Source of the DNA: Microbacterium sp. ProA8
GTDB taxonomy: Bacteria > Actinomycetota > Actinomycetes > Actinomycetales > Microbacteriaceae
Assembly: GCF_039905635.1 (NCBI RefSeq)
Contig: NZ_CP157000.1
Coordinates: 310,001-374,000, forward strand
Length of the DNA stretch: 64,000 bases
Direction of reading: 5' to 3'
Below, in pieces: positions 43,210 through 63,582 of the stretch. The notes beneath the pieces were generated by a model. It was given only the letters and a program-made list of their open reading frames with translations. It did no database searches and was not told the origin of the DNA. The translations under genes and the position numbers were made by a program. Positions within the stretch are counted from its first letter, which is position 1. Each line of letters opens with the position of its first letter.

Positions 43210-43247
43210 CGGGAGCGCGCCGTCACCGCGGCGCGATGTGCTCCCGC
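43209..43247 (+). terminator. lysS terminator
   Basis: GCGGGAGC pairs with GCTCCCGC, and inside them CGCGCCG pairs with CGGCGCG, separated by a short bulge. The stem starts at the lysS stop codon and has no T-run. Confidence 0.6.
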
Positions 43248-43294
43248 GACGGCTGCGGCTCGACGGTCGAGGGCGACAGATGAGACCATCTCGC

Positions 43295-46288: not shown

Positions 46289-46468
46289 ATGACCTGCATG
46301 TCCCACGTCCCGGAGTCAGCCGCGCGCCACGAGGCCGCCGCGAGTGACGACTCGAGCACCGAGCCCGCGCTGCCCCCGCAGGGTGGAGCCCCCACCGACG
46401 GCTCCGTCGATCCCGACGGCGCCGCCGACCGTTCGCGCCACAGCCACGATCCTTACCAACCCCTGTAG
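46289..46468 (+). CDS. possible small disordered protein, 59 residues
   Basis: An open frame between the regulator and subtilase genes with strong G/C third-position bias. The product would be disordered and rich in Asp, Ser, Pro and His (TEPALPPQGGAPTDGSVDPD), with no signal peptide or known motif. There is no ribosome binding site before the ATG. It stops 16 bases before the subtilase start, so it could be a leader peptide gene or an accidental frame. Confidence 0.3.
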   Translation: MTCMSHVPESAARHEAAASDDSSTEPALPPQGGAPTDGSVDPDGAADRSRHSHDPYQPL

Positions 46469-46484
46469 ACCGGAGACCCCACCC

Positions 46485-49400
46485 ATGAGACTCACCGCCC
46501 TCGCCACGTCGCTGGCCGTCATGGCCGGCCTGACCATGGGTGCGCCGCTCCCGGCGGCCGCCGCCGAACCGGATGCCGGTCCGCCCGAAGCCAAGATCGC
46601 GAGCGACCTGAAGGACCGCTTCGACGAGGACCCGGTCGCCGATTTCTGGATCACCTTCAGCACCAACGCCGACCTGGCACCCGCGAAGGAGATCACCGAC
46701 TGGGACGAGCGCGGCCAGTTCGTCTACGACGCGCTCGAGAAGTCGGCCAAGGCTTCCGAGGCGGCCGTCGCCGCCGAACTCGAGGCAGCGGGCGTGAAAT
46801 ACACGTCCTACCCCCTTGTCAACGCCGTGCTCGTCAAGGGCGGCACGCAAGAACTCGCGCTCGACGTCGCCTCGGTGGGGCAGGTCGCCGAGATCCACGC
46901 GTCGCCGCAGGTCGCGCTCGTCGAACCCGTTGACGAGAAGGCGCCGGGTGACGAGGCCGTCCGCCCCGACGACGCCGCGGTCGCAGGTGAGGCGGGCGTC
47001 AACGCGTGGGGCGTGGACGCCATCCGTGCACCCGAGGCCTGGGCGATGGGCGCCACAGGCGCCGGCATCACCGTGGCCAACCTCGACTCGGGTGTCCAGT
47101 TCGATCACGCGGCGCTGGTGTCGAAGTACCGGGGCGCGAAGCCGGACGGCACCTTCGACCATGACTACAACTGGATGGCCACCCGGACCACCTGCTCGGA
47201 CGCGCCGTGCGACGACAACGGCCACGGCACGCACACCATGGGCACGATGGTCGGCGACGACGGCACCGAGCACGTCGGCGTCGCCCCGGGTGCGAACTGG
47301 ATCGCCACCGACGGCTGCTGCAGCAGATCCGGGGCGGAGTCGCTGCTGGCCTCCGGCTGGTGGTTGCTGGCTCCCACCGATCTGCAGGGTGACAACGCGG
47401 ATCCCTCGAAGCGTCCTCACGTCATCAACAACTCGTGGGGCCAGGACACCGAGCACGACTTCCACACCTTCTTCAATGCCATCGACGAGGCGTGGACGGC
47501 TGCCGGCATCTTCAGCGTCTGGTCGTCGGGCAACACCTCGCCGTACGCGGCCTGTGACACCGTCTCCTCGCCGGGGGCGGCCCCGGGCGCATACTCCGTC
47601 GGCGCCTACGACGTGAGCGGCAACCTGGGGGCGTTCTCGCGCAAGGGGGAGGGTGAGAACGGACAGATCAAGCCCGAGATCTCGGCGCCCGGGGTGGGCG
47701 TCCGCTCGTCGTACCCCGGCAACCAGTACGTCGAGATGTCCGGCACCTCGATGGCGTCGCCGCATGTCGCCGGCGCCATCGCCGACCTGTGGAGCTACGA
47801 CCCGACACTCATCGGGCAGGTCGAGGAGACCCGTCGCCTGCTCGGCGAGTCGGCCGTCGACGTGGACAACACGTCATGCGGCGGCACCGCCGACTTCAAC
47901 AACATGTACGGCGAGGGTCGACTGGACCTGCCCCGCCTGCTGGAGCTCGCGCCCCGTCAGGGAGGCACGCTGACCGGAGCGGTCACCGCGAACGGTGAGC
48001 CGGTCGTCGGCGCCGAGTTGACGATCAGCGGACCGTTCACGCGCTCCGTCGGGACGGACGACGCCGGCCGGTTCTCCGTGAACCTGCCCGTGGGCGATTA
48101 CGAGCTGAGCACGAAGGTCTTCGGCTACCTGTCCGCGACCGTCGAGGTCTCGATCGCCCTCGGCGAGGAGTCCTCCGCCGACCTCGCGCTCACGGCCGCC
48201 CCGCGCCACGACATCCGCGGCACGGTGGTCGACGAAGACGGCGACGCCGTTCCGAACGCCGACGTCTCGGTCAGGGGGACGCCGCTGGATGCCGTCCGCA
48301 CGGACGCCGACGGCGCGTTCGCGATCGCCGACGTGCCCGAGGGCCAGTACGGCATCGCCGTCACGCCGAATGCCTGCTTCTCGCCGACGTCCGTTCCGCT
48401 GACGGTCGGCGCCGAGAACGAGCGGCTGGAGATCCCGGTCGGGCTCATCGTCGACGGCGGCGGCTACAGCTGCGCCGTCTCCGAGGGGGAGCACCTGCGC
48501 GGCACCGACCCCGTCACCTTCACGGAAGGTGTCTGGGCGATGGTGGAGCTGCCGTTCCCGATCGCGCTCTACAACGGGAGTCACGACACGCTCGGCATCG
48601 GTCTGCGAGGCAACATCTCTCCCGTCGATTCCACGGGACCGGGCTACGGCGGCGCCGGCGCCTTCCCGTTCTCCGTCGAGACCCCGGTCGAGTTCGCCCC
48701 GGGCGGTGGCGTGTTCACGGCGGCGACGAAGCTCGACGGGGAGGACGCGTTCGTCGTCGAGTACCGTGACGCCAAGATCTGGTCGTACCCGATCCGGTCG
48801 GAGTACACGGAACCGGTCGACTTCTCGGCCACGTTCACGCGCTCGGGCAAGATCGTCTTCGGGTACGGCGACGGCATCGGCACCGACGACCCGGTGACGG
48901 CCGGTGCCCGCGCCATCACCGGCATCCAGGGCTGGGCGGGTGTGGACGGCATCCGGTTCTCCGACAACGCGCCGGTGCTCGAGGACGGGATGATCGTCAC
49001 CTACGATCTGCCCGACTGGGGCTACCTCGATGCCACCGTCATCGACAAGAACGACGGGCTGCCGGTGTCCGGGGCCACCGTCTCGTTCACCGATGAGGAC
49101 GGACTCGTCGAGCGCGTCACGACCGGCGGGACGGGCGTCGTGCACCGCCAGCTTCCCGTCGCCGAGTACACGATGACGGTCGAGGCGCCGAACTACACGA
49201 TCGGGTCGTACGACTTCACGCTCGACGAGCTTTACGCGAAGGCCAAGATCGATGCGCGCCTGACCACCGGCGTCGCGGACCTGAAGGCCGACGGCCTGGA
49301 CGTCCTGATGGGCACGGACCAGAACGGCGTCGGCTCGCTGACGCTGACCAACACCGGTTCCGCCCCGCTCACGTACGACCTGGCAGAGGCCGAACGCCAT

Positions 49401-52400
49401 CCCGAGCTCGACGCCGCGGGCGCCACGACGCGCACCGAGACGGGGGCGGACAGCACCATCGACCTCACCGCGTGGACGGCCGGTGCAAGCGACATGACGG
49501 CGTCGAACGTCGACGGCGAGTCGGCGGCATCCGCCGCCGCGGAGGCGGATGCCGCCCTCAAGGTCGGCGCGACCGCCGGCGGCGAGGTCATCACCCGCAT
49601 CGAGATTCCGGGCACCATCGCGGAGAAGGAGCCCTCGGGCGTCGGATACGACGGAGACGTGTGGGTCCACGACTACGACAAGCGGACCAACACCGCCTAC
49701 ACGGTGACGGGCAGGTCCACGGGCAAGGTCTTCGACGCGGCGTGGAACCCCGACTACCGGGCGTTCGACATGGCGCTCGACACCGAGACCGGTGACATGT
49801 GCCAGATGGAGGACAGCCCTGACAGCTACATCCACTGCTTCGACCGGGAGGCGGGTAAGGAGACCCGGCAGATCAAGGGTGACTGGTCCACGCTGCCTCT
49901 GACCGGGCTCGCCTACAACCCCGAGGAGGACGTGTTCTACGTCGGCGGCCGGAGCAACGGCATGATCGGGACTGTCGCGGGCACGTCTCACGACGACGCC
50001 GGCGCACTGCGCTCGTTCTGCGCCCCGCCGCTGCCGGAGATCATGGGCCTCGCCTACAACCAGGCGTCCGACACCATCTGGTACTCGGACCGGACCTCCA
50101 ACCGGCCCACCCGCCTGCTGCAGGTCGACCCCGAGGACTGCTCGCTCGTCAACGCGTGGTGGTTCCCAGGCATGAAGCTGGGCGCGGGAGGCGGCCTCGA
50201 GACCGACTCGACCGGCGCGCTGTGGGCCGTAGACCAGCTTAGCGACGAGGTGCTGCTCGTCGACGTCGAGGACGACCTGGTCACCGACCTGCCGTGGCTG
50301 TCGCTCTCCTCCACCGGCGGCACCCTCGCCCCGGGAGAGTCGACCACGGTCGAGGTCTCGATCACCTCGAAGGATGTCGACCCCGGCACGCGGGCCGCCA
50401 ACGTCATCGTGCGATCGGATGCCGGACGGCAGTCGAAGGCCTACGTCCCGGTGACGCTCACGACCACCGCCTTCCAGGCGGCGGTCGAGGTCGGCGGGAC
50501 GTCGTTCACCGATGCCAGCGGCTTCACCTGGTCCGCCGACCAGGCGGCCGGGGAAGGCACGTGGGGCTACCAGGGCAAGGACAAGGTGACCTCCACGCGC
50601 GCCCCGATCGCGGGCACCGAGGACGACGCGCTGTTCCAGTCCCAGCGCACCACGCCGGACAACGGCCTCGTCTACACCTTCCCCGATGCGCCGAAGGGCA
50701 CCTACAACATCGACCTCGGGTTCGCGGAGACCGACAAGGTGGAGCCGGGCAAGCGGGTGTTCGACGTCCTCGTCGGCGACGAGCTGACGCAGTACGCCTA
50801 CGACGCCGCCTCCGCCGTGGGTCCCGACGCCGCCGACTGGCACACCGCCGTGGTGGAGCACGAGGGCGGCCCGCTGACTGTCGAGCTGCGGGGTGCGAAG
50901 GGCCTCCGGGCTCCGAGCATCGCGGCCCTGCGTGTGACGCTCGACCCGCGCGCGACCGAAGCCGAACCGGAGCCTCAGCCCCAGCAGCCGGAACCGGGCC
51001 CCGTGCCGGTGGCGCCGGCGGGTCGCTCCTACTCGATGCAGGTGACCGAGGGGCTCTACCGGCAGGGAACCACGGACTCCGAGTGGCAGGGCGACGACCT
51101 CTGCGGCGTCCTGTGGTTCGACTCCAGCTTCGTGTTCCCGTTCTACGACACGGCCTGGGACGGCGTGTGCGTGACGACGAACGGGTCGCTGGTCTTCGAC
51201 CGGTCGAGCAACAATGCGAGCAACACGGCGCTGCCCTCGCGGACCCCGGTCGACGCCATCTACCCGCTGTGGGACGACTTGATCGTCGATGACCAGGCCG
51301 GCATCTACTTCGGTATGACCGAGGTGGACGGGATGGCGGCGGAGGTCATCGAATGGCGCAACGCCACCTTCTACAGCGACCGGACGGCCAGGGTGAGCTT
51401 CTCCGTCACCCTGATCGCGGACGGCCGCATCCAGATCGGCTACGGCGACGGCGTCGGCGGTGACAACCCCCTCACCCACGGGTCGTCGGCGACGGTCGGC
51501 CTGGAGAGCCTGACGCGCAACCCCGCGAGCCAGTACTCCTTCAATCAGCCGGTGCTGACTGCCGGGCTGGGGATCGAGTACACGCTCCCGGCGTCGGGCA
51601 CGATCGAAGGGACGGTCACCGACAAGAACGACGGCACGCCGGTCGCCGGCGCGATCATCACGCTGCGGGGTCCCGCCGGCGACCGGGTCATCACGGCCGA
51701 CGAGCTGGGCCGATGGAAGGCCCAGGCGCTGGTCGGCGAGAACACCGTGGAGGTCTCGGCGCCGAACTACGTCACTTCCAGCCACCCGGTGACCATCGCC
51801 GCGAAGGACCAGGCCGAGGTGGTCGACACCGCGCTGGCCACCGGCATCGCGACGGTCACCCGAGGCGAGCTCGATTGGCTGCTCGGCCCCGGCCAGACGG
51901 CGACGGCCGACGTGACCGTCACGAACACGGGCTCCGCCCCGCTCCAGCTGGAGCTGAGTGAACAGCGGCGCACCGACGACGGCGGGCACGAGGCCGCCGA
52001 CCTGCCGTGGCTGACCCTCACAGGAAAGGCCGCGGACGGCACCGTCGAGCTCGGGATCGGTGAGTCCACCACGGTCACCGCGAAGGTCGACAACGCCGGC
52101 ATCGAGCCCGGCGTGCTCGTCGGGGATGTGCTCGTCGCGTCCAGCACCGGCAAGGAGGTGGCGCAGTTCGCGCCGGTCCGACTGGCGACCTCCGCCTACT
52201 GGCAGGGCGTCGATGCCGGTGGGGCCGGGTTCGTCGGCGCGGACGGCTTCGTCTGGTCGCCCGACCGCGCGTTGGGCTCGGAGCCGTGGGGGTACGTCGG
52301 TGGTACCGACGGCGCCACCAAGGCCGACATCGGCGGCACGGAGGACGACGACCTGTTCCGCACCCAGCGGACCGGAAAGGCGTTCAGCTACGTGTTCAAG

Positions 52401-52673
52401 GACGTACCCGCCGGGACGTACCGGATCGGCCTCGACTTCGCCGAGATCGACAAGGTCAAAGCCGGTATGCGGGCGTTCGACGTCCTGGTGAACGGGACTC
52501 CCGTGCTCCACGACCACGACGTCCAGGCCACCGTGGGCGCGCTCACCGCCGACCTTCAGGAGGTCATCGTCGAGCACACGGGAGGCGATCTCACGATCGA
52601 GTTCACGGGCGAGATCAGTGAGCGGGACCCGATCCTGAATGCCGTCAAGGTTCGGGAGGACCCGCGCCTCTGA
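46485..52673 (+). CDS. giant secreted S8 (subtilisin-family) peptidase with repeated C-terminal modules
   Basis: A 2062-residue exported protease. Residues 1-27 are a signal peptide, and an I9-like propeptide runs to about 155. The catalytic triad is complete: D201 (ANLDSG), H247 (NGHGTH), S422 (GTSMASPH), with the oxyanion Asn in SSGNTS. Four carboxypeptidase-regulatory-like beta domains lie near 493, 573, 845 and 1705. A propeller-like region covers about 1030-1310. Two malectin-like domains are at about 1326-1490 and 1903-2060. Two modules ending FGYGDGIGTDDP and IGYGDGVGGDNP are duplicates. There is no LPXTG sortase signal, so it is probably released or held by carbohydrate binding. GGAGA lies eight bases before ATG. 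Confidence 0.92.
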   Translation: MRLTALATSLAVMAGLTMGAPLPAAAAEPDAGPPEAKIASDLKDRFDEDPVADFWITFSTNADLAPAKEITDWDERGQFVYDALEKSAKASEAAVAAELEAAGVKYTSYPLVNAVLVKGGTQELALDVASVGQVAEIHASPQVALVEPVDEKAPGDEAVRPDDAAVAGEAGVNAWGVDAIRAPEAWAMGATGAGITVANLDSGVQFDHAALVSKYRGAKPDGTFDHDYNWMATRTTCSDAPCDDNGHGTHTMGTMVGDDGTEHVGVAPGANWIATDGCCSRSGAESLLASGWWLLAPTDLQGDNADPSKRPHVINNSWGQDTEHDFHTFFNAIDEAWTAAGIFSVWSSGNTSPYAACDTVSSPGAAPGAYSVGAYDVSGNLGAFSRKGEGENGQIKPEISAPGVGVRSSYPGNQYVEMSGTSMASPHVAGAIADLWSYDPTLIGQVEETRRLLGESAVDVDNTSCGGTADFNNMYGEGRLDLPRLLELAPRQGGTLTGAVTANGEPVVGAELTISGPFTRSVGTDDAGRFSVNLPVGDYELSTKVFGYLSATVEVSIALGEESSADLALTAAPRHDIRGTVVDEDGDAVPNADVSVRGTPLDAVRTDADGAFAIADVPEGQYGIAVTPNACFSPTSVPLTVGAENERLEIPVGLIVDGGGYSCAVSEGEHLRGTDPVTFTEGVWAMVELPFPIALYNGSHDTLGIGLRGNISPVDSTGPGYGGAGAFPFSVETPVEFAPGGGVFTAATKLDGEDAFVVEYRDAKIWSYPIRSEYTEPVDFSATFTRSGKIVFGYGDGIGTDDPVTAGARAITGIQGWAGVDGIRFSDNAPVLEDGMIVTYDLPDWGYLDATVIDKNDGLPVSGATVSFTDEDGLVERVTTGGTGVVHRQLPVAEYTMTVEAPNYTIGSYDFTLDELYAKAKIDARLTTGVADLKADGLDVLMGTDQNGVGSLTLTNTGSAPLTYDLAEAERHPELDAAGATTRTETGADSTIDLTAWTAGASDMTASNVDGESAASAAAEADAALKVGATAGGEVITRIEIPGTIAEKEPSGVGYDGDVWVHDYDKRTNTAYTVTGRSTGKVFDAAWNPDYRAFDMALDTETGDMCQMEDSPDSYIHCFDREAGKETRQIKGDWSTLPLTGLAYNPEEDVFYVGGRSNGMIGTVAGTSHDDAGALRSFCAPPLPEIMGLAYNQASDTIWYSDRTSNRPTRLLQVDPEDCSLVNAWWFPGMKLGAGGGLETDSTGALWAVDQLSDEVLLVDVEDDLVTDLPWLSLSSTGGTLAPGESTTVEVSITSKDVDPGTRAANVIVRSDAGRQSKAYVPVTLTTTAFQAAVEVGGTSFTDASGFTWSADQAAGEGTWGYQGKDKVTSTRAPIAGTEDDALFQSQRTTPDNGLVYTFPDAPKGTYNIDLGFAETDKVEPGKRVFDVLVGDELTQYAYDAASAVGPDAADWHTAVVEHEGGPLTVELRGAKGLRAPSIAALRVTLDPRATEAEPEPQPQQPEPGPVPVAPAGRSYSMQVTEGLYRQGTTDSEWQGDDLCGVLWFDSSFVFPFYDTAWDGVCVTTNGSLVFDRSSNNASNTALPSRTPVDAIYPLWDDLIVDDQAGIYFGMTEVDGMAAEVIEWRNATFYSDRTARVSFSVTLIADGRIQIGYGDGVGGDNPLTHGSSATVGLESLTRNPASQYSFNQPVLTAGLGIEYTLPASGTIEGTVTDKNDGTPVAGAIITLRGPAGDRVITADELGRWKAQALVGENTVEVSAPNYVTSSHPVTIAAKDQAEVVDTALATGIATVTRGELDWLLGPGQTATADVTVTNTGSAPLQLELSEQRRTDDGGHEAADLPWLTLTGKAADGTVELGIGESTTVTAKVDNAGIEPGVLVGDVLVASSTGKEVAQFAPVRLATSAYWQGVDAGGAGFVGADGFVWSPDRALGSEPWGYVGGTDGATKADIGGTEDDDLFRTQRTGKAFSYVFKDVPAGTYRIGLDFAEIDKVKAGMRAFDVLVNGTPVLHDHDVQATVGALTADLQEVIVEHTGGDLTIEFTGEISERDPILNAVKVREDPRL

Positions 52674-54764: not shown

Positions 54765-56231
54765 ATGATCACCATCACGTTCGATGCGACGTGGTGGGTG
54801 GTGCTCGTCTTCATCGTCGACATCGTGATCCGCGTGGCGGCGATCATCATCGTCCCGCGCAACCGCCGCCCGACCGCGGCGATGGCGTGGCTGCTCGCGA
54901 TCTACTTCATCCCGATCATCGGCGTCTTCCTGTTCCTGCTGATCGGCAACCCCCGGCTGCCGCGCCCGCGCCGGCGCAAGCAGGAGCGCATCAACGACTA
55001 CATCCACGACACCAGCGCGTCGCTCGATTTCGGCACGCTGCGTCCGCACGCCCCGCAGTGGTTCACCTCGCTGGTCACGCTGAACCGCAACCTCGGTGCC
55101 ATGCCCCTCGCGGGCGACAACGCCGCGCACCTGATCCCCGACTACCAGGAGAGTCTCGACGCGATGGCGGACGCCATCCGGCAGGCGGAGCACTTCGTGC
55201 ACGTGGAGTTCTACATCCTCCAGGCGGATGCCGCGACCGACAACTTCTTCCGCGCGCTCGAAGAGGCGGCGGCGCGCGGTGTGACCGTGCGGGTGCTGCT
55301 CGACCACTGGGCGAACCGCGGCAAGCCGTTCTACAAGAAGACGCTGCGGCGCCTGGATGCGATGGGCGCGCAGTGGCACCTCATGCTGCCCGTGCAGCCG
55401 TTCAAGGGGAAGTACCAGCGGCCCGATCTGCGCAACCACCGAAAGCTCGTCGTGGTCGACGGACGCGTCGCGTTCACCGGGTCGCAGAACGTCACCGACT
55501 CCACCTACAACCTGCGCAAGAACATCCGCCGCGGCCTGCACTGGGTCGATCTCATGGTGCGCATCGAAGGCCCGGTCGTGGCATCCGTCAATGCCGTGTT
55601 CCTCAGCGACTGGTACAGCGAGACCGACGAGGTGCTCACCGAGCAGATCGACCTCTTCGACGTGACGAGCGGGCCGGGCGATCTCGACTGCCAGATCGTG
55701 CCGTCCGGACCCGGGTTCGAGTTCCAGAACAACCTCAAGCTGTTCGCCGGGCTGCTCTACGCCGCGCACCGCAAGATCATCGTGGTCAGCCCGTATTTCG
55801 TGCCCGATGAGGCGCTGCTTCTCGCCATCACGACGGCGTGCCAGCGTGGCATCCATGTCGAGCTCTTCGTGTCGGAGGAGGGCGACCAGGCGATCGTCTA
55901 CCACGCGCAGCGCAGCTACTACGAGGCGCTGCTGAGGGCGGGCGTGAAGATCTGGATGTACAAGAGGCCGTACATCCTGCACACGAAGAGTCTCACCATC
56001 GACGACGAGGTGGCGATCGTCGGCTCGAGCAACATGGACATGCGCTCCTTCGGTCTCAACATGGAGATCTCCCTGTTCGTGCGAGGCGAGGAGTTCGTGC
56101 GCCAGATGCGGACGGTGGAGGACAGGTACCGCTCGCTGAGCCGGAAGCTCACGCTCGAGGAATGGGAGAAGCAACCACTGCGCTCGACCGTGCTGGACAA
56201 CCTCGCGCGGCTCACGTCGGCGCTGCAGTAG
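54765..56231 (+). CDS. cls: cardiolipin synthase (phospholipase D family)
   Basis: A 488-residue membrane enzyme that makes cardiolipin from phosphatidylglycerol. Two N-terminal membrane segments (WWVVLVFIVDIVIRVAAIII and MAWLLAIYFIPIIGVFLFLL) precede two HKD motifs: NHRKLVVVDGRVAFTGSQN (near 225) and LHTKSLTIDDEVAIVGSSN (near 410). The length fits bacterial Cls. GAGAGG lies upstream of the ATG at 54765. The 3' end overlaps the convergent kinase-like gene by 20 bases. Confidence 0.94.
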   Translation: MITITFDATWWVVLVFIVDIVIRVAAIIIVPRNRRPTAAMAWLLAIYFIPIIGVFLFLLIGNPRLPRPRRRKQERINDYIHDTSASLDFGTLRPHAPQWFTSLVTLNRNLGAMPLAGDNAAHLIPDYQESLDAMADAIRQAEHFVHVEFYILQADAATDNFFRALEEAAARGVTVRVLLDHWANRGKPFYKKTLRRLDAMGAQWHLMLPVQPFKGKYQRPDLRNHRKLVVVDGRVAFTGSQNVTDSTYNLRKNIRRGLHWVDLMVRIEGPVVASVNAVFLSDWYSETDEVLTEQIDLFDVTSGPGDLDCQIVPSGPGFEFQNNLKLFAGLLYAAHRKIIVVSPYFVPDEALLLAITTACQRGIHVELFVSEEGDQAIVYHAQRSYYEALLRAGVKIWMYKRPYILHTKSLTIDDEVAIVGSSNMDMRSFGLNMEISLFVRGEEFVRQMRTVEDRYRSLSRKLTLEEWEKQPLRSTVLDNLARLTSALQ

Positions 56232-57312
56232 GCGCGACGCGCAGCAGACCCTCCGTCACGAGCCGCTCCACCGAGGCGCGAACCAGTCCGGTGGCATCCG
56301 CGCCGTCGGGTGCGCCATGCGCCGCGGTCGCGGCCGCGACGAGCGCCTCGAGGGGGACGCCCGATGCCGCGGCCCACAGTGTCGGCGCGATGCCGTCCAG
56401 GACGCGCACGGTGCCACGGCCGGCCGCGTCAGCGGTCAGCACGGCGATGCGGTCGGAGCCCACGAGCTCGAGCTCGTCGACGCAGGCGGCGCGGAAGAAC
56501 CGAGGTTCTTCGCGGCTGTCGTCCGCCGTTCCCGGGTCGCGTGTGGTCGGCGGAGCGATCGACGGAATCGCGATGGGACTGGAGAGGAGTTGTGGGACGA
56601 TGCCCATGAGATCACTCGCCTCGCGGTAGCGCACCGCGCGGATCCCGCCGGTCGCTTCCGCGACAGCGGCGATGAGCCGCAGCGAGTCGGGCCGTTCGGC
56701 GAGGTGGCTGGACTGGGTCACGAGGCCATCGAGCGCGTCGGCCAGATCGATTGCCGTGAGGACCGGAGGGCCATCATGTTCTGCTTCCCGGTTCAGCAGC
56801 ACGATTGCGCGCAGTCGCAGGTCGGCGGGAATCGTGCCGAGCCCGAGGGATGACGGTCGCTGCTCGACCTTCGGCGCACGGGGCTCTTCGATGACCGACA
56901 GCGGCTTGCGGTAGGCGAAGACGCGGCCATCTCGGGCGATGCCGACCGTCTCATCGGAGACGTAGCCGTAGCCACGGGCCAGTTGGCGGGATGCCGTCGT
57001 CTTGCCGCGCCCCGACGGCCCGACGAGCGCCAAGACGTCTCCCGCGGACGTCGCGATGCCGGCCGCATGAATCATCCAGAGGTCTGCTCGCCTGGCGTCT
57101 ATCGCGACGCGCGTCACCTGCCGGGACAGCGACTGCAGCATCCGGATGCGCCCCGAGTCGCGGGGGACGACGATAGCCGCGGGATCGTCGACCGCGCCGG
57201 CGACGGCATCGGCCCACACGTGCCGCACGGCTTCTGCGTCATCGGGATCGAGAGCCGACAGGTCGATGGCGACCGTCGCTCCGACGGCGCTGACGTAGAG
57301 CAGGTCGGTCAT
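56212..57312 (-). CDS. HprK-like P-loop kinase fused to a C-terminal PqqD-like domain
   Basis: A 366-residue cytoplasmic protein. Residues about 80-210 resemble the HPr kinase/phosphorylase core: MIHAAGIATSAGDVLALVGP, Walker A GPSGRGKT (98-105) and GYVSDETVGI. The last ~75 residues (ELVGSDRIAVLTAD to VERLVTEGLLRVA) look like a PqqD winged-helix domain. HprK-like proteins with PqqD and nucleotidyltransferase partners are known as an uncharacterised system and from lasso-peptide loci; both partners occur here at 62453-63582. No HPr is nearby. A TACACT box six bases before the ATG makes it leaderless. It overlaps cls tail to tail. Confidence 0.78.
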   Translation of the reverse strand: MTDLLYVSAVGATVAIDLSALDPDDAEAVRHVWADAVAGAVDDPAAIVVPRDSGRIRMLQSLSRQVTRVAIDARRADLWMIHAAGIATSAGDVLALVGPSGRGKTTASRQLARGYGYVSDETVGIARDGRVFAYRKPLSVIEEPRAPKVEQRPSSLGLGTIPADLRLRAIVLLNREAEHDGPPVLTAIDLADALDGLVTQSSHLAERPDSLRLIAAVAEATGGIRAVRYREASDLMGIVPQLLSSPIAIPSIAPPTTRDPGTADDSREEPRFFRAACVDELELVGSDRIAVLTADAAGRGTVRVLDGIAPTLWAAASGVPLEALVAAATAAHGAPDGADATGLVRASVERLVTEGLLRVAPTAAPT

Positions 57313-57318
57313 CCTCGC

Positions 57319-57324
57319 AGTGTA
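57319..57324 (-). promoter_or_regulatory. -10 box of the HprK-like gene
   Basis: TACACT on the minus strand, then GCGAGG and ATG. It is divergent from the acyltransferase promoter 65 bases away. Confidence 0.6.
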
Positions 57325-57388
57325 GGCGAGGCCCGGTGTGCGCCCGTGCGCGTGCGGACCGCTCCCACGCGTGAAACGCGGCGTGCTC

Positions 57389-57394
57389 TACTCT
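57389..57394 (+). promoter_or_regulatory. -10 box of the acyltransferase gene
   Basis: TACTCT, then GGGGCG and GTG at 57401. This spacing fixes the start and excludes the 21-residue upstream extension. Confidence 0.6.
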
Positions 57395-57400
57395 GGGGCG

Positions 57401-58657
57401 GTGACATCCGCACCTGCTGGGGAGCGAACGGAGCGCATCGCGGCCATCGACGGCCTGCGCGCGTTGGCGTTCCTGCTGGTGTTCGCGTTCCACTCGTGGC
57501 AGTTCGCGGGGACGCCGGACATCCCGGTGATCTCCACCGTGGTGGCCCAGAACATCCGTCCGGACTTCTTCGTGGTCCTGACGGGCTTCGTGCTGTTTCT
57601 GCCGTTCGCCCGGGATCCGTCGCGCCTCGGGCGATTTCGTGCGGGGCCGTACCTCAATCGGCGCCTGCGCCGGATCGTGCTGCCCTACTACGCCGCTCTC
57701 GCTTACGCGATCCTCCTGCCGCAGACGCTGGTGCTGCTGATGAAGCTGCTCGGTCGGGAGGCATCGTGGCAGCCCTGGCCGAGCGTGGGCGACGTGCTGA
57801 GCCACGTCACCTTCACGCACATGTTCTTCCCGCAGTACTGGTCGACGATCAACGGCAGCCTGTGGACGATGGCGCTCGAGATGCAGTTGTACCTGCTCTT
57901 CCCGCTGGTGATGCTCGCCGCCGCCCGGTGGGGGCTGCGCGCGATCGTCGGCGCGATCGTCGTGTCGGTGCTCTTCCGCATCGGCGTCGACCTCTTCCTG
58001 GGGGACGCCGACTTCTCCGTCGTGTTCCTCTGGGCCGCCTCGGGGTTGGGCCGGCTGACCGAGTTCGCCTTCGGCATGCTCGCCGCGGTGGTGGGCTTCC
58101 GGGTTGCCGGCCGGGTGCGACCGCCGCACGCGCTCGCGGTGTTGGCCGTCATGGTCGCGGCCTACTTCGTCGCCACCGAGCCCTTCTTCCGCGGGACGGT
58201 GCTGCCCATCCGCGACTTCGGGCTCTCCGTGCTGTTCGGCGGCCTCATCGTCCTCGTTCTGACGGTGCGTCCGTTCGGGGCGGCGTTCGCGTGGCGGCCG
58301 GTGTCCTGGCTCGGCTACCGGTCGTACAGCCTCTTCCTCATCCACCAGCCGACCCTCTGGTACGCCTCGGAGTTCCTGCAGAAGTTCCTCCGCGTGCCCG
58401 AGGGGGTGCTGCTGCTCATCCTGCTGTGGACCGTCGGGTTCGCTGCGGTGCTCGGCGTCGGCCTCCTGCTCTTCGTCACCGTGGAGCGTCCGTGCATCAC
58501 GTGGGCGAAGCGGGTGCCGTCGAGCCGGGCACCCGCGCCGGCCTCGGTGGTCGAGGCGCCCGGCGCGGCGGAAGCCCCCGTGACCGACACCGCGGCCGAC
58601 GGTGACGCGGGCGATGCTCCCCGTCCCGCCGAGGGAGAACGGCCGCCGAGTGCCTGA
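57401..58657 (+). CDS. acyltransferase 3 family membrane protein
   Basis: A 418-residue polytopic enzyme with about ten membrane segments. IAAIDGLRALAFLLVFAFH carries the catalytic His at the end of the first segment, and PDFFVVLTGFVLFLPFARDP with the Arg-rich loop LNRRLRRIVLPYY is typical. A disordered Pro/Ala tail of about 40 residues follows. Family members transfer acetyl or other acyl groups to sugars of surface polysaccharides. It starts with GTG after a TACTCT box and overlaps the next glycosyltransferase gene by eight bases. Confidence 0.9.
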   Translation: MTSAPAGERTERIAAIDGLRALAFLLVFAFHSWQFAGTPDIPVISTVVAQNIRPDFFVVLTGFVLFLPFARDPSRLGRFRAGPYLNRRLRRIVLPYYAALAYAILLPQTLVLLMKLLGREASWQPWPSVGDVLSHVTFTHMFFPQYWSTINGSLWTMALEMQLYLLFPLVMLAAARWGLRAIVGAIVVSVLFRIGVDLFLGDADFSVVFLWAASGLGRLTEFAFGMLAAVVGFRVAGRVRPPHALAVLAVMVAAYFVATEPFFRGTVLPIRDFGLSVLFGGLIVLVLTVRPFGAAFAWRPVSWLGYRSYSLFLIHQPTLWYASEFLQKFLRVPEGVLLLILLWTVGFAAVLGVGLLLFVTVERPCITWAKRVPSSRAPAPASVVEAPGAAEAPVTDTAADGDAGDAPRPAEGERPPSA

Positions 58658-59510
58658 GCTTTCGGTACTCATGCCGGTCCGCAACGGCCAGGCCACGGTG
58701 GGCCGTGCGGTGGCGTCGACGCTGCGGGCCATGCCGCGCGACGCGGAGTTGGTCATCTGGGACGATGCGTCCAATGACAGCACGGTCCGGCTGATCGAGC
58801 AGATCGACGACCGCCGCTTGCGGCTCATGCCGAATGATCGGACGGTGGGCGTCGGGGCAGCGCTGCGGGCGCTGTGTGACCAGACGGATAGCCGATTCGT
58901 CGCACGCATGGACGCGGACGACGTGTGCCTGCCGTGGCGGTTCGCCGCGCAATCCGCGGCGCTGCGCGTGCAGCGGTGCGAGATCCTCTTCTCGCCCGTG
59001 CTGCGGTTTCGCACGTCACCCCTGCGGGTCGCGCTGTCCGCGCCGGTCGCGATCCCGCCGGCGGCGCTGCCACTGCACCTGGCGGTGATGTGCGTGGTGA
59101 TGCATCCCACGATGTTCGCCGCACGGCGCGCCATCGAGACGGCGGGCGGCTACCGGGGCGTGCTCGCCGAGGACTACGACCTGTGGCTGCGTGCCGCGAC
59201 CCAGGGGGCGCCGATGGCCAGGATGCCGCTGCCGACGCTCGCCTACCGACGCCACCCAGGCCAGGTGTCGCTGACCGGTGAGTATGCGCGTCGAGTGAGC
59301 ACCGACGCCGGGCTCGCTCAGTCGTACCGCGATTTCGTGCGCGCGACGCTCGACCTCGACCTCGACTGGATGCCGGGTCAGCGCCCGGACTCCCCTCGGA
59401 CCGCAGAGGCCGCGCGGGAGTTGCGCGCGCGCCTGGAAGCGCGATCGGCGCGCCTGTCGGCGTGGCAGCGGCGTCTGCTTCAGCGCACGATGCGGCGGCT
59501 CCCCTCCTAG
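58650..59510 (+). CDS. GT2 family glycosyltransferase
   Basis: A 286-residue cytoplasmic enzyme. PELSVLMPVRNGQATVGRAV opens the GT-A fold, VIWDDASNDSTV binds the nucleotide sugar, and RFVARMDADDVCLPWR holds the metal-binding DxD. GVLAEDYDLWLRAA is the ED motif that supplies the catalytic base, and a C-terminal helix follows. GTG 58650 is chosen because homologues begin just before ELSVLMPV and the gene then overlaps the acyltransferase by only eight bases. It converges on the pyruvyl transferase gene. Confidence 0.88.
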   Translation: MPELSVLMPVRNGQATVGRAVASTLRAMPRDAELVIWDDASNDSTVRLIEQIDDRRLRLMPNDRTVGVGAALRALCDQTDSRFVARMDADDVCLPWRFAAQSAALRVQRCEILFSPVLRFRTSPLRVALSAPVAIPPAALPLHLAVMCVVMHPTMFAARRAIETAGGYRGVLAEDYDLWLRAATQGAPMARMPLPTLAYRRHPGQVSLTGEYARRVSTDAGLAQSYRDFVRATLDLDLDWMPGQRPDSPRTAEAARELRARLEARSARLSAWQRRLLQRTMRRLPS

Positions 59511-59541
59511 CCCCGTGTGACCGCGCGGCTCACCGCATGGC

Positions 59542-60552
59542 TCACCGCGGGGGCTGCAGCAGCTCGCGGACGTGGTCGTCGGCCTCCTCTGCCGTGTGCG
59601 CGAAGCGGACGAGCGGGAACCGCCCGAGATAGTCGGCGAAGACCGAGGCGAGCTTGCCGTTGGCGTTGTCCCTGGCCACCACGGGTCGGCCCAGCAGGGT
59701 GGCGAGCACGGCGGCATGAAGCCGATCGGTGACGACGACCCGACCCCGCAGCAGTGTGTCCTCGGCGGCGCGGACGAGGGTGCGAGCGGCCAGGGCGTAC
59801 CCGGGATCGACAAGAGCACGGGAGAAGCGGGGAAGCGCTCTGGGAGCCCGTTTGGCGACGGAGCCGGGCGCCTTGGCGAGGTTCCAGGTCAGCTTCTCGA
59901 GCGGGGAGTAGTTCCAGTCGACGGTCTCCTGCGACCACGAGCCGCCGCCGGCGACCAGCGGCATCCCCGTCGACTCGCTGTCGGCGCGTCGCAGCTGAAC
60001 GATATCGACGCGTGCCCGTCGGGTCCTCGTCGGGCGATAGCCGAACGCGAGGTCGGGGCAGTAGTCCACTCGCACGCCCTCGAGCAGGTCGGCCGCCCGG
60101 CGCAGGCTGTGGGTGTCGCGCAGGAGCACCGTCAGGTCGGGGTGTGGCAGGTACGCGGAACGCACCCGGGCGGCGGTCCCGGGAGACATCTCGACGCTCT
60201 GCGGGAGCTGGACGATCCGGCGGTCGGGGAAGTCCGCGATCACGCGCTCACGGAAGTGCTGGAAGAGCGCCCAGCGATCTCCGAAGTTGCCCCCGCCGTG
60301 AAGGAGGATCGGCCCCTCGGGGTGCAGGCCTGCGAGATCGGCCGGCCGGTACCGCCCGACCGAGGTCTGGTATCGCACCGGGATGCCCAGCCGACGGAGG
60401 TACGCGCGTTCGCCCAGGTAGATGAGCGAGTCGCCGGCGTTGTCGTGCAACGGGAAGTCGACCAGGGCCACCGGCATGCCCGGCTCGAGGAGCGGACGGA
60501 GGACGTCCAGCGATTCACGTTGAAGGTGCTCGTGGACGGGGGCGAGTGTCAT
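59542..60552 (-). CDS. polysaccharide pyruvyl transferase family protein
   Basis: A 336-residue enzyme with the pyruvyl transferase fold. Key stretches are DNAGDSLIYLGERAYLRRLG, ILLHGGGNFGDRW, RIVQLPQSV and VVTDRLHAAVLATLLGRPVV, all typical of the family. It should place a pyruvyl ketal on a polysaccharide sugar, giving it negative charge. The ATG overlaps the stop of the upstream glycosyltransferase gene by four bases (ATGA), so the longer reading from 60681 is not used. Confidence 0.9.
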   Translation of the reverse strand: MTLAPVHEHLQRESLDVLRPLLEPGMPVALVDFPLHDNAGDSLIYLGERAYLRRLGIPVRYQTSVGRYRPADLAGLHPEGPILLHGGGNFGDRWALFQHFRERVIADFPDRRIVQLPQSVEMSPGTAARVRSAYLPHPDLTVLLRDTHSLRRAADLLEGVRVDYCPDLAFGYRPTRTRRARVDIVQLRRADSESTGMPLVAGGGSWSQETVDWNYSPLEKLTWNLAKAPGSVAKRAPRALPRFSRALVDPGYALAARTLVRAAEDTLLRGRVVVTDRLHAAVLATLLGRPVVARDNANGKLASVFADYLGRFPLVRFAHTAEEADDHVRELLQPPR

Positions 60553-61454
60553 CCTGGCTGCCCGCGGCGCAGCACCCGACGGGCGACCGCGCCCGCCGAG
60601 TCGACGGGTGCGCTTCGCACCGCCCACCAGGAGAGGGCGAGGACGTCGCTCAATCGACCCGCCTTGGCTGCGGCCGCCCATTCTGCGAGGTTCTCGTCGG
60701 CCGCATCGTGCCGGTAGCGGCGAAGGTTCCGCGCCAGCAGGTCCGCGAGCTGTCGGTCCCCGCGGCGGCGCGCGCGGTTCACGTGCCCGCGCAGCCCCCG
60801 CATCGCCGCCTCACGGCCCGGTAGCCCACGATTGGTGACATTGGCGCTGTGCCGGCGATACCCGACGAGCTGCCGGTCCACCGCGGCGAATCCGCCCTGC
60901 TGCAGCAGGCGGAGGATGAGCTCGTTGTCCTCCGCAGGCTCCATCTCGCTGCGGCACCCCCCGACGGCGACGTAGGCGCTGCGCCGGATCAGCAGCGTGG
61001 TGATACGGGGAAAGGTGACCTCACCGGCAAGCATGTCGTGGGCGGAGGCCGCGGGGGCGGGCCAGCCCTGGCCGAACGGCTTCCCCTCCGCGTCCATGTA
61101 CCAGCCGCCCGTGTACGCCGCGATCGCTTCCGGCGCGGCGGTCAGTGCGTCGAGCTGGCTCCGGGTGCGCTCGGGATGCCACACGTCGTCGTCGTCGAGG
61201 AACGCGATCCAGTCGCCGTGCGCCGCCGCGACGCCCGTGTTGCGGGCGACGGACAGGCCGGAGGCATCCTGTCGCACGTACGTCACGCCCAGCTCCGCCG
61301 CGATGGCGGCGAGGCCGGGTGCAGGGGCACCGTCGTCGATGAGCAGTATCTCGCCCACCGGCGCGGTTTGCGCGCGCACGGAGGCCACCGTCTCGCGAAG
61401 GTACCGACCGTCGCGGTTCGTGGGGATGATGACGCTGACCGACCGTGAGTCCAC
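60549..61454 (-). CDS. GT2 family glycosyltransferase
   Basis: A 301-residue enzyme. SVIIPTNRDGRYLRETVASV and ILLIDDGAP lead the GT-A fold, and IAFLDDDDVWHPERTRSQL contains the DxD metal site. EPAEDNELILRLLQQGGF is the acidic base motif. The C-terminal 60 residues are helical and Arg-rich. GTG 61452-61454 has GGGGAGGA upstream. It is the first gene of a two-gene unit with the pyruvyl transferase, divergent from the fucosyltransferase-like gene. Confidence 0.88.
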   Translation of the reverse strand: MDSRSVSVIIPTNRDGRYLRETVASVRAQTAPVGEILLIDDGAPAPGLAAIAAELGVTYVRQDASGLSVARNTGVAAAHGDWIAFLDDDDVWHPERTRSQLDALTAAPEAIAAYTGGWYMDAEGKPFGQGWPAPAASAHDMLAGEVTFPRITTLLIRRSAYVAVGGCRSEMEPAEDNELILRLLQQGGFAAVDRQLVGYRRHSANVTNRGLPGREAAMRGLRGHVNRARRRGDRQLADLLARNLRRYRHDAADENLAEWAAAAKAGRLSDVLALSWWAVRSAPVDSAGAVARRVLRRGQPG

Positions 61455-61531
61455 GCTTCCTCCCCGGTTGCTCCCGCCTCGCACGACTCCCGCGGCGAGT
61501 CCTGCATAGTGTAGACGGGAGGACGAACCGG

Positions 61532-62431
61532 ATGGGTGCAGTCAAGCAGGCGGTGTGGCGGGCGTCCCGGCCGTTGCGGAGGGTCGTCGGGCATGTCCGC
61601 TGGCGCGCGCGGCGGACGACGGGGGACGTCGTGGACCGGTTCCGCCGTGGCGACCGCACCGTGATCGCCACGCCGGGCGGGATGCGCTTCGGGAACTGGC
61701 TGTACCTCTGGCTCGCCTCCCACCAGCGCACGGCCGAGGGCAGCCCGACGCTCGTGCTCGAGGTGCCGGGGATGGCTCCGTGGCTGGAGCAGTTCCCCGC
61801 GCTGTCCGCGCTCACGATCCGCAAGCAGGATCTCGGCTTCCACGATCGACGCGAGTGGAAAGGTGGTTTCGCGCTGCAGCGCTTCGGCGTCGACTTCACG
61901 CGCGAGGCGCTGCAGCGGTTCGTCCGCGAGGTGCTGGCTCCCGGACTTCCGACGACGGCGCCGGCGCCCGTCGCCGTCAACGTCCGGCGCGGCGACTACT
62001 ACGCCTATGACGGCTTCCGCTCGAGGTACGGCATGGACATCGAGGGGTTCGTGCGCGAGGCGCTCGTCCAGGTCGGACCGGTCCCTGGCATCCTCGTCGT
62101 GTCGGACGACCCCCAGTGGTGCCGGGAGCATCTCGGTGAGATGCTGCGGGCAGCGGCGCAGGAGGTCTCGTTCGCCGAGCGCGACCCGGTCGCGAACTTC
62201 CTGGCGATCGCCTCGGCCCCCATCCTGATCGGCACCAACTCAACCTTCTCGTACTGGGGCGGCTACGTCACCGATGCCATCCAGGATGGCGCGCGCGTCG
62301 TCATGCCGAGGTTCCACGCGCGGATGGACGATGGATGGGACGCGTATCAGCTCGACCCCGCATGGACGGCGCTCGAGGGCTTCGACGGGCGGGGGGACCC
62401 CGCCGCACGAACGGCCGCCGACGGGGCGTGA
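61532..62431 (+). CDS. alpha-1,2-fucosyltransferase-like (GT11) protein
   Basis: A 299-residue cytoplasmic enzyme. The GDP-sugar motif VAVNVRRGDYYAYDG matches the HxRRGDY motif of GT11 with the first His replaced by Asn. GTNSTFSYWGGYVTDAI matches the third motif (NSTFSWW), and ATPGGMRFGNWLYLW is the N-terminal motif. The donor is probably GDP-fucose, but no fucose biosynthesis genes lie here, so another deoxy sugar is possible. A TAGTGT sequence lies near 61507 with GGGAGG before the ATG. Confidence 0.85.
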   Translation: MGAVKQAVWRASRPLRRVVGHVRWRARRTTGDVVDRFRRGDRTVIATPGGMRFGNWLYLWLASHQRTAEGSPTLVLEVPGMAPWLEQFPALSALTIRKQDLGFHDRREWKGGFALQRFGVDFTREALQRFVREVLAPGLPTTAPAPVAVNVRRGDYYAYDGFRSRYGMDIEGFVREALVQVGPVPGILVVSDDPQWCREHLGEMLRAAAQEVSFAERDPVANFLAIASAPILIGTNSTFSYWGGYVTDAIQDGARVVMPRFHARMDDGWDAYQLDPAWTALEGFDGRGDPAARTAADGA

Positions 62432-62440
62432 GGCGCTGGA

Positions 62441-62446
62441 TAGAGT
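62441..62446 (+). promoter_or_regulatory. -10 box of the nucleotidyltransferase-PqqD unit
   Basis: TAGAGT, then GTGACG and GTG at 62453. Transcription would start at or next to this codon. Confidence 0.5.
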
Positions 62447-62452
62447 GTGACG

Positions 62453-63322
62453 GTGATGCAGTCCGAGGCAGCCGAGGTTGCGGTGCCGCTCGCGGTGCGG
62501 CTGCTCCTCGGACGGGCCGCCGTGCAGGTGATCGCATCGGATGCCGGCGCGGATCTGCTCCATATCAAGGGGAACGCGGTCGACATGTCGCTGCGGGCGC
62601 TGGACGCGCCAGGGTCCGACATCGACGTCATGGCCCGCCCTACCCACGTGCCCAGGCTGCATGACGCGCTCGTGCGGCGAGGCTGGGTGGTGTACAGCTC
62701 CTTCCGCTACGGGTCCCCGTTCGGCCACGCGCAGACCTACCGCCACCCCGACTGGGGGTACCTGGACCTCCATCGCATGTTCCCGGGCATCCGCCTCGAC
62801 CCCGAGGCGGCGTTCGACGAGCTGTGGTGCGACCGCGGCACGAGGGACTTCGCGGGCACCGACGGCGCCGTCCCTTCCCTGACCGGTCAGGCGGTGCTCT
62901 TGGTGCTCAACGACGTCCGGTCTCGCCGGGGAACCCGGGCGATCGCCACGTGGATCGACGGGCCGGGGCTGGATCGCTCGGAGGTGACGGCGCTGGTGGA
63001 GCGACTCGACGCACGCGTGGCCTTCGCAGCGGCGACCGGTGATCTCGAGCGGTATCGCGGCGAACGCGACTACCGCCTGTGGAAGGGCATCACCCAGGGC
63101 AGCACGCGCACCGGGGAATGGCGGGCGCGGGTGCAGGCGGCACGCACGCTGCCGGAGGCGCTCGGCATCGTCGTGCGCGCACCGCTGGCCAACGTGGAGC
63201 GACTCACCCATCAGCTCGGACGCAGCCCCACGCGTGCGGATGTGCTGCGCGCGATGGCGATGCGCCCGGTGCGCGCGGTGCGCGAGCTCGTGGCAGGCGT
63301 GCGACGGCGGGTGCGGCCGTGA
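62453..63322 (+). CDS. nucleotidyltransferase-family protein (NTP_transf_5 type)
   Basis: A 289-residue cytoplasmic protein. LLHIKGNAVDMSLRALDAPG leads to the catalytic GSDIDVMA (GSDID at 54-58), followed by HVPRLHDALVRRGW, as in the uncharacterised nucleotidyltransferases found beside PqqD proteins, lasso-peptide genes and HprK-like kinases. A C-terminal helical domain completes it. Substrate unknown. GTG 62453 fits the TAGAGT box; ATG 62456 is the alternative. The stop overlaps the PqqD start (TGATG). Confidence 0.82.
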   Translation: MMQSEAAEVAVPLAVRLLLGRAAVQVIASDAGADLLHIKGNAVDMSLRALDAPGSDIDVMARPTHVPRLHDALVRRGWVVYSSFRYGSPFGHAQTYRHPDWGYLDLHRMFPGIRLDPEAAFDELWCDRGTRDFAGTDGAVPSLTGQAVLLVLNDVRSRRGTRAIATWIDGPGLDRSEVTALVERLDARVAFAAATGDLERYRGERDYRLWKGITQGSTRTGEWRARVQAARTLPEALGIVVRAPLANVERLTHQLGRSPTRADVLRAMAMRPVRAVRELVAGVRRRVRP

Positions 63323-63582
63323 TGCGCGTCGGTCCTCGCGTGGCGGCCACCGAGTACGAGGGCAAGGTGTTCCTCGCGCAGCTGCCGGACGGTCCGATCC
63401 GGGTGCTGGAGGGCACGGCCGCGCTGATCTGGACGCAGGCCCTCGCCGTGCCGCGCTCCGGCCTGGTGGCGGCGCTGGCGGAAGAGGTCGTCGGAGACCC
63501 CGCGACGGTCGGCGCCGAGTTGTCGGCGTTCGTCGACGCGCTGCTGGAGCAGCGGCTGCTGGTCGACGACGAGGAGGCGTGA
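63322..63582 (+). CDS. PqqD-family protein
   Basis: An 86-residue winged-helix protein: VFLAQLPDGPIRVLEGTAAL then IWTQAL, and a final helix ALLEQRLLVDDEEA. PqqD proteins bind the leader of a peptide substrate and present it to a modifying enzyme. No radical SAM enzyme, lanthipeptide gene or precursor peptide is visible in the window. It is coupled on both sides by TGATG overlaps, so it is made with the nucleotidyltransferase and the membrane protein. Confidence 0.85.
   Translation: MRVGPRVAATEYEGKVFLAQLPDGPIRVLEGTAALIWTQALAVPRSGLVAALAEEVVGDPATVGAELSAFVDALLEQRLLVDDEEA

Follow-up and report, generated by a model that had tools for sequence, protein, structure and literature searches.

What does a kinase of the HPr kinase type, fused to a PqqD-like domain, do among polysaccharide genes together with a nucleotidyltransferase (NTase) and a second PqqD, and on what does the set act? 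The question is raised by a stretch of 64,000 nucleotides from Microbacterium sp. ProA8 (the window, genome C1:310001-374000), for which an earlier account made from the letters alone, the sequence-only reading, had singled out these three genes. Our data suggest that the set is a modification system for secreted proteins of the twin-arginine translocation (Tat) type, and that it is built from the enzyme kit of phosphorylated ribosomally synthesized and post-translationally modified peptides (RiPPs), that is, of paeninodin-like lasso peptides and of linear polyphosphorylated peptides (LPPs); we give this reading a probability of about 0.72. The three genes of the set are:

56212-57312, minus strand: HprK/PEPCK-type kinase of 366 aa with a C-terminal PqqD/RiPP recognition element (RRE) domain; kinase at about residues 1-245, RRE at about 271-360
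62453-63322, plus strand: NTP_transf_5-like NTase of the Pol-beta NTase fold, catalytic DxD and DxH present
63322-63582, plus strand: separate (discrete) PqqD/RRE, PF05402

Position and family of all three are as the sequence-only reading had them. The Walker A motif of the kinase, GPSGRGKTT, starts at residue 98, and the matches to the NCBIfam models HprK_rel_B (TIGR04355; E = 1.2e-4, 21.3 bits) and HprK_rel_A (TIGR04352; E = 1.3e-3, 17.9 bits) are partial and lie around the P-loop, so that with curated cut-offs of 200 bits the protein is a member of neither family. All 50 matches listed for its AlphaFold2 model were phosphoenolpyruvate carboxykinases (PEPCKs), and HPr kinase itself was not among the matches listed. 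When the kinase sequence of this genome was searched alone, Pfam PqqD left its C-terminus unmatched; PF05402 matches the kinase at E <= 0.1 in 12 of 21 scanned family members. In the AlphaFold2 model (pLDDT 93.9, pTM 0.90), residues 271-360 form a domain of four strands and three helices, and the kinase-family profile matches the solved leader-binding RREs LppB (9x8z, E = 4.9e-5, profile positions 266-356) and TbiB1 (5v1u, E = 8.5e-5). As homologues, model and solved-structure profiles agree, the C-terminus is a PqqD/RRE domain, which the sequence-only reading had proposed. The NTase matches NTP_transf_5 at E = 2.8e-4 (21.0 bits, under the curated cut-off of 31.2) and keeps the invariant KG as well as DxD and DxH; its start codon is ambiguous (GTG at 62447 or 62453, or ATG at 62456), and its profile found no relative by sequence among solved structures at E <= 0.1. 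Both enzymes retain conserved catalytic-type residues. The discrete PqqD matches PF05402 above the cut-off (E = 2.6e-6), and a profile from four discrete PqqDs matches PbaB1 (1.1e-6), TbiB1 (2.8e-6) and LppB (7.3e-4). Leader-bound PbaB1, TbiB1 and LppB are thus the best solved relatives of the RRE profiles, and by model and profiles the winged-helix PqqD domain is related to leader-bound RREs. A PHROGs search with four proteins gave no match.

To find the substrate, the locus of this genome and 26 loci of relatives were scanned for small open reading frames with an N-terminal [YW]xxPx[hydrophobic] motif and a ribosome-binding-like site. Secreted proteins were the one class that recurred across genera in these 27 loci, with 10 hits in 7 loci and signals like SRRTVTKAMAWAVPVIAIAAPAPAFALSG, and the remaining hits were single, apart from two pairs between loci of one genus (L039/L058 and L047/L058; L and G numbers are our handles for loci and genomes). 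These paired small frames with their YxxP/WxxP-like motif are probably frames over another gene. A signal-specific pattern applied after the scan yielded more signals, and 22 signals made up the first signal profile (A2), which was then used as a probe. The signal has the twin-arginine form RR-x(7)-W-x-x-P-x-[IVL]-x(6)-P-x-A-x-A, followed by Ser, and contains the RRE consensus; counted from W at 0, P stands at +3, a hydrophobic residue at +5 and Ser at +17, with the likely cleavage near +15/+16. Twin arginines, a hydrophobic stretch and an alanine-rich A-x-A site are all present, and the Tat route is predicted from these sequence features.

To lessen circularity, the profile was also run with its W, first P and Ser columns masked. 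This masked profile found 67 signals in 44 of 80 kinase loci of relatives (the best 80 of 218 from a scan of the genome collection), with W in 65 of 67, P(+3) in all 67 and Ser(+17) in 62; likewise, 62 signals have I, V or L at +5. In columns that had stayed unmasked, RR and P(+12) are found in 67/67 and A(+16) in 61/67. The published RRE consensus [YW]xxPx[LVIAFY] occurs in 61 of the 67 signals, compared with a mean of 4.2 and a maximum of 11 in 1000 shuffles of the same segments. Pfam, scanned on 64 of 68 candidate substrates (that of this genome and 63 of the 67), found Big_1 in three, a single hit to each of six further families, and no model of the signal; NCBIfam found two families at E of about 0.004, one of them a model for a formate-dehydrogenase-region Tat target, in a single member. 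In these 64 candidates the signal is therefore an N-terminal class that Pfam and NCBIfam do not recognize, bar that one marginal NCBIfam match to a Tat-region model. Searches in the open text of PubMed Central, which lacks most subscription papers, gave no description of such a signal or of Tat proteins as substrates of such kinases.

The only signal match in the genome of the window itself lies 12 kb past the window end:

75874-76518 in window coordinates (C1 385874-386518), plus strand: candidate substrate, a secreted protein of 214 aa, divergent from an exporter gene, beyond the window

It has R13 R14, W22-A-V-P25-V-I27, P34, A35-F-A37 and Ser39. The sequence-only reading had suggested a scan beyond 64000 for a small precursor gene; a candidate substrate was found there, whereas an LPP-like precursor was not found in 50 kb of this region. 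Its idea that the set modifies a peptide or protein linked to glycan export holds in the protein form, by way of the signal-bearing secreted proteins. Its other idea, that PqqD had been reused to carry something that is not a leader, is not supported, as the candidate substrates bear, inside a Tat-type signal, the W-x-x-P-x-[IVL] consensus that the RREs of lasso peptides and LPPs bind.

One may object at this point that the product of the enzymes is an ordinary small RiPP, either an LPP or a phosphorylated lasso peptide, and that the signal proteins belong to the matrix of the same exopolysaccharide and are simply inherited along with it. The enzyme kit is indeed that of the LPP and paeninodin clusters, which likewise lie in capsule loci of Bacilli (PMC13381572), and two distant genomes have signal proteins that are small themselves (open frames of 104 and 106 aa). 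However, the small-frame scan returned secreted proteins as its one class recurrent across genera, and the full LPP precursor motif (YxxPxVLxHQxIxFETxxS) is absent from all six frames of the 50 kb and of 106 loci of relatives, in which the loosest of four patterns for this motif had 3 matches. Furthermore, neither a lasso cyclase (macrolactam, Asn synthase) nor a B2 peptidase was seen among the 27 frames of this region scanned with Pfam, which cover not every gene, and the signal genes lie scattered, a single genome having as many as 33 matches. We therefore consider a small RiPP product improbable.

The phylogenetic profile, for which the kinase, NTase and signal profiles were run over the same 249 genomes of the family, links the signal to the enzymes. 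Only strong kinase matches were counted, because at E <= 0.001 the A1 kinase profile picked up P-loops in 12 of 12 genomes tried; kinase matches weaker than 2.2e-19 (64 of 88 genomes), NTase matches of 5.4e-35 and weaker (12 of 36) and signal matches with a best E of 1.9e-3 to 7.1e-3 (11 of 38) were left out. The kinase is strong in 24 of the 249 genomes (E <= 2.2e-19, next best genome 2.0e-5), and the NTase is present in exactly the same 24 (E <= 7.4e-53, next best 5.4e-35), a coincidence that is more than chance. A PqqD beyond the kinase's first is found in 22 of the 24 (not in G070 and G214); the three genes thus co-occur in related genomes. The sequence-only reading had named two outcomes that would refute it, a kinase C-terminus that does not model as PqqD and a lack of such co-occurrence; both were looked for, and neither came about. 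The signal, at E <= 1e-4, is present in 27 genomes, namely in all 24 with the kinase and in 3 of the 225 others (G085, G165 and G199), and the table of kinase by signal, 24/0/3/222, gives a Fisher p of 1.8e-30 with genomes taken as independent. With the weak signal matches kept, the figures are 24/24 versus 14/225 (p = 5.8e-24). The training sequences of the signal profile came from 13 of the 24 genomes; the remaining 11 are all positive, as against 3/225 (p = 1.5e-16), the weakest being G163 (1.5e-5) and G214 (6.1e-5). In seven genera that have genomes with and without the kinase (23 genomes tabulated by hand, not every member, the present one included), the signal tracks the kinase in 21 of 23, the exceptions being the signal-only genomes G085 and G199 of one genus (g2). 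Some genomes have 30 or more signal matches. One genome (G045, loci L039 and L059) combines two kinase, three NTase and 19 signal matches. The WxxP signals at L200 and L201 (G085) and L202 (G165) are intact in genomes that have no recognizable kinase, where the enzymes may have been lost or another enzyme may serve.

The genes also lie close together. The 80 kinase loci span Microbacterium, Herbiconiux, Rathayibacter, Subtercola, Agromyces, Pseudoclavibacter, Arthrobacter, Paenarthrobacter, Pseudarthrobacter, Sinomonas, Tessaracoccus, Brevibacterium, Glutamicibacter and others; a signal gene is found in 43 of them, an NTase in 43, a signal peptidase I in 37, Wzz/CpsD in 58, a low-molecular-weight phosphatase in 37 and a relative of the ABC exporter of this locus in 4. 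In the 43 loci with a signal gene, no more than 500 bp separate its open frame from that of the kinase in 28 cases, and no more than 2 kb in 38. A discrete PqqD is found in 27 loci. Another 14 encode a kinase with a second PqqD in tandem (i-Evalue <= 1e-3), and this fusion links the discrete PqqD to the kinase. In these tandem kinases (L112, L114-L117, L119-L122, L124, L125, L131, L145 and L157), the second PqqD resembles the discrete one. Of the 37 loci that have no signal gene on the stretch, 27 had their genomes searched whole, and all 27 genomes carry the signal, with 1 to 33 matches and a weakest best E of 6.7e-10. Ten Microbacterium loci (L127-L129, L132, L133, L135-L137, L150 and L155) have the kinase and no NTase or Wzz on the stretch, and in nine of these genomes searched whole (all but that of L136) the signal was present in 9/9. 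Locus L116 (JACEFY010000021.1), titled Stenotrophomonas maltophilia, is a Microbacterium-like kinase/NTase/signal locus, and probably a contaminating contig.

These neighbourhoods could also be taken to mean that W, P and Ser are a special recognition signature of the Tat system or of a signal peptidase, and that the kinase set acts elsewhere, for example as a regulator of polysaccharide synthesis. RR is invariant (69/69 signals, in a column that the profile itself demands), the signal peptidase gene stands in 37 of the 80 loci, parts of polysaccharide control are frequent neighbours (the phosphatases and Wzz/CpsD counted above), and three genomes have the signal and no kinase. Yet not every locus has a signal peptidase gene, whereas kinase and NTase track the signal in 24/24 genomes, and WxxPx[IVL] is the RRE consensus in a set that includes RRE domains. 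To our knowledge, ordinary Tat and signal-peptidase recognition needs no W-x-x-P. We accordingly see little chance that the motif serves export alone.

Outside the family, the association continues with a variant of the signal. Ten genomes in a phylum sample of 296 match the kinase profile at E <= 1e-12: strongly that of the window and G333 from another family of the order, in which kinase, PqqD and signal protein are neighbours, and also eight distant ones outside the class (E = 5.9e-22 to 2.9e-13). The signal profile A2 matched two of the 296 at E <= 1e-4, again the present genome and G333, and one more at 5.9e-4. Six of the seven distant loci fetched first have a Tat-type protein with the variant signal RR...W-x-A-P-x-[IVL], less than 1.5 kb from the kinase in five and 6.6 kb away in G264; in G299, the seventh, the variant stands beside a second kinase gene. 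A profile of the variant (A7) is positive in 21 of the 296 genomes, including 8/8 distant kinase genomes; six of these supplied its training, and in the two that did not, G299 and G377, the variant signal lies beside the kinase. Thirteen A7-positive genomes had no match to the kinase profile. Eight of them were fetched, and in two of these, G273 and G478, kinase and NTase genes lie near the signal gene; the best E of the five others is 5.1e-5 to 9.8e-4. In G478, the signal protein (open frame of 106 aa), NTase and kinase lie within 2.2 kb. The small cysteine-bearing signal proteins beside kinase and NTase at L194 (G306) and L238 (G478) are the smallest candidate substrates of the distant group.

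The following mechanism would account for the observed co-occurrence, adjacency, parts and motif conservation. In the cytoplasm, the RREs, of which the kinase carries one and the other is either a separate protein or likewise part of the kinase, would bind W-x-x-P-x-[IVL] in the hydrophobic part of the signal. The serine at +17 from W, where signal peptidase cuts, would thereby come to lie in the active site of the kinase. The kinase would phosphorylate this serine by the cleavage site, and the NTase would add a sugar, a sugar-phosphate or a nucleotide to the phosphate. Binding is drawn here from LppB, PbaB1 and TbiB1, serine phosphorylation from LppK, and NTase action on the phosphate from PsmN. 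After Tat export and the cut by signal peptidase I, the modified serine would be at or next to the new N-terminus, where it may tether the protein to the polysaccharide that the locus itself makes; this attachment to glycan is speculation, prompted by where the genes lie. On the simplest view, the signal peptide would at the same time be a leader of the RiPP type. Tat exports folded proteins, which fits modification before export.

The same property of Tat lends itself to another account, in which the RRE is a mere chaperone that holds the signal peptide until the protein has folded, as redox enzyme maturation proteins do, and in which kinase and NTase either work on another part of the protein or are release factors driven by ATP. 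Small proteins that bind Tat signals are indeed known, and PqqD is a separate gene in 27 of the 80 loci. However, kinase and NTase keep their catalytic-type residues and follow the signal no less strictly than the RRE does, and the serine at +17 is conserved in 62/67, a residue for which we know of no need on the part of signal peptidase. Of the accounts considered, we find this one the least probable.

Several observations weigh against modification of Tat-type proteins by the set. The first concern the RREs: a pocket Phe, which packs on the motif proline in LppB and PbaB1, is found in 0/25 kinase-fused RREs (A in 15, V in 5, others in 5), and the discrete PqqD of this genome, as sole query, found no RRE among solved structures. 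The pocket Phe, which lies between two leader pockets, is kept in 20 of 26 discrete PqqDs, and its absence from the kinase-fused RRE suggests that the main binding is done by the discrete or second PqqD. A second PqqD is also found in 9 of the 225 kinase-negative genomes (E = 3.7e-10 to 6.6e-4), which overlaps the weakest of the 22 (G227, 6.1e-6). As to the signal, the masking left RR and the second P unmasked, Ser is missing from 5 of the 67 masked-profile signals, and in the variant signal Ser is not strictly kept, often being Thr or absent. G085, G165 and G199 have the signal and no full-length or recognizable kinase; among the fetched A7-positive genomes, G503 and G532 have only a weak PqqD match on the stretch, and G382, G513, G420 and G285 have no kinase, NTase or PqqD there, G420 and G513 being represented by short contigs. 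Two signal peptidases tested from the loci are of the bacterial type TIGR02227 and not of the archaeal type of LPP clusters, and with the signal peptidases of relatives as query none was found in the locus of this genome (window coordinates 30001-94000). Deletion of the NTase in the LPP system is reported to have given no visible change (PMC13381572). Finally, the type of exopolysaccharide may be the common cause of both signal and kinase.

The exopolysaccharide genes between kinase and NTase (57338-62431) were counted as context and not as core of the set. As the sequence-only reading had claimed, the neighbours are an acyltransferase, glycosyltransferases and a pyruvyl transferase; the DUF2142 match stays below the threshold. 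Past the window end, the locus continues with further glycosyltransferases and a second pyruvyl transferase, and with the last two genes listed here (assignments within the window from Pfam).

57338-58657, plus strand: Acyl_transf_3 acyltransferase
58602-59510, plus strand: GT2 glycosyltransferase
59542-60681, minus strand: pyruvyl transferase
60549-61484, minus strand: GT2 glycosyltransferase
61445-62431, plus strand: Glyco_transf_11 (GT11-like)
63.58-64.78 kb, plus strand: DUF2142 match, sub-threshold (Pfam)
66225-67868 in window coordinates (C1 376225-377868), plus strand: Wzz/CpsD, beyond the window
73763-75574 in window coordinates (C1 383763-385574), minus strand: MsbA/PglK-like ABC exporter, beyond the window

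Elsewhere in the window, a subtilase of 2109 aa with carboxypeptidase-regulatory-like repeats and two malectin stretches is encoded at 46344-52673 (plus strand), and a large AAA_16/LuxR-type regulator at 43154-46240 (plus strand).

Sets of kinase, PqqD and nucleotidyltransferase now have sequence-defined candidate substrates, none of which we found described before, and the role of such sets in polysaccharide loci becomes testable. RRE recognition may reach beyond peptide natural products and mark dozens of exported proteins per cell. In a wider version, which we put forward as a tentative and rather unlikely extension, surface proteins of Actinobacteriota would be tagged proteome-wide: an RRE would read the code in the Tat signal, the Ser that is to become N-terminal would be phosphorylated and then glycosylated or nucleotidylated ahead of export, and the mature proteins would be joined covalently to exopolysaccharide via a phosphodiester, a Gram-positive counterpart of PEP-CTERM/exosortase.

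Among known systems, redox enzyme maturation proteins such as DmsD and TorD have another fold. They share with the present set that small cytoplasmic proteins bind a Tat signal before export (PMC3316669), and differ in that they serve cofactor insertion without a kinase. The PEP-CTERM/EpsH (exosortase) system likewise has a short terminal homology domain that is tied by phylogenetic profile to exopolysaccharide loci (PMC1569441), but the signal is C-terminal there, whereas an N-terminal Tat signal is combined with kinase, NTase and RRE here. The closest precedent, with an RRE next to an export signal, comes from the DUF2063-type RREs: their DUF2282 precursors are described as having Sec-dependent signal peptides and, behind these, variable leader regions, with no specific RRE motif (PMC12710340); here, the motif lies inside a twin-arginine signal, and the enzymes are others. 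In the paeninodin-like lasso peptides and in pseudomycoidin, an HprK-type kinase phosphorylates Ser, and PsmN, annotated as a nucleotidyltransferase, is reported to be required for the hexose on the phosphorylated Ser of pseudomycoidin (PMC9266682). Furthermore, a WxxP leader is read by a PqqD-type RRE in lasso peptides (PMC13381572). They differ in that the Ser is the C-terminal one of a threaded peptide, made with a cyclase and a B2 peptidase, neither of which was seen in the frames scanned here.

The closest relatives are the LPPs of Bacillota (Popov et al. 2026, PMC13381572). Their clusters, in capsule loci, comprise an RRE, an HprK-like kinase, an NTP transferase, a signal-peptidase-like protease and an MsbA-like exporter, and the precursor consensus YxxPxVLxHQxIxFETxxS is cut after T, with S phosphorylated in the tested case; LPPs and paeninodins are said there to be restricted to Bacillota, with biological roles unknown. 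Kinase, discrete RRE (related to LppB via the profile of four) and NTP transferase all have their counterpart here. Even the register is close: counted from that consensus, Y is at 0, P at +3, V at +5, cleavage after +15 and Ser at +18, as against Ser at +17 here. However, LPP clusters belong to Bacillota and have one to three precursors of 35-200 aa each, a Tyr motif, an archaeal-type peptidase and a discrete RRE, whereas we find, in Actinobacteriota, a kinase-fused RRE, a Trp motif inside a twin-arginine signal, a bacterial-type peptidase and many dispersed secreted proteins. As neither the small precursor nor the archaeal-type peptidase was found in the sequences searched, we class the set as a variant of the LPP/phosphorylated-lasso kind and not as a member of it, and its constant association with the signal proteins suggests that bacteria have borrowed the chemistry of modified peptides for tagging surface proteins.

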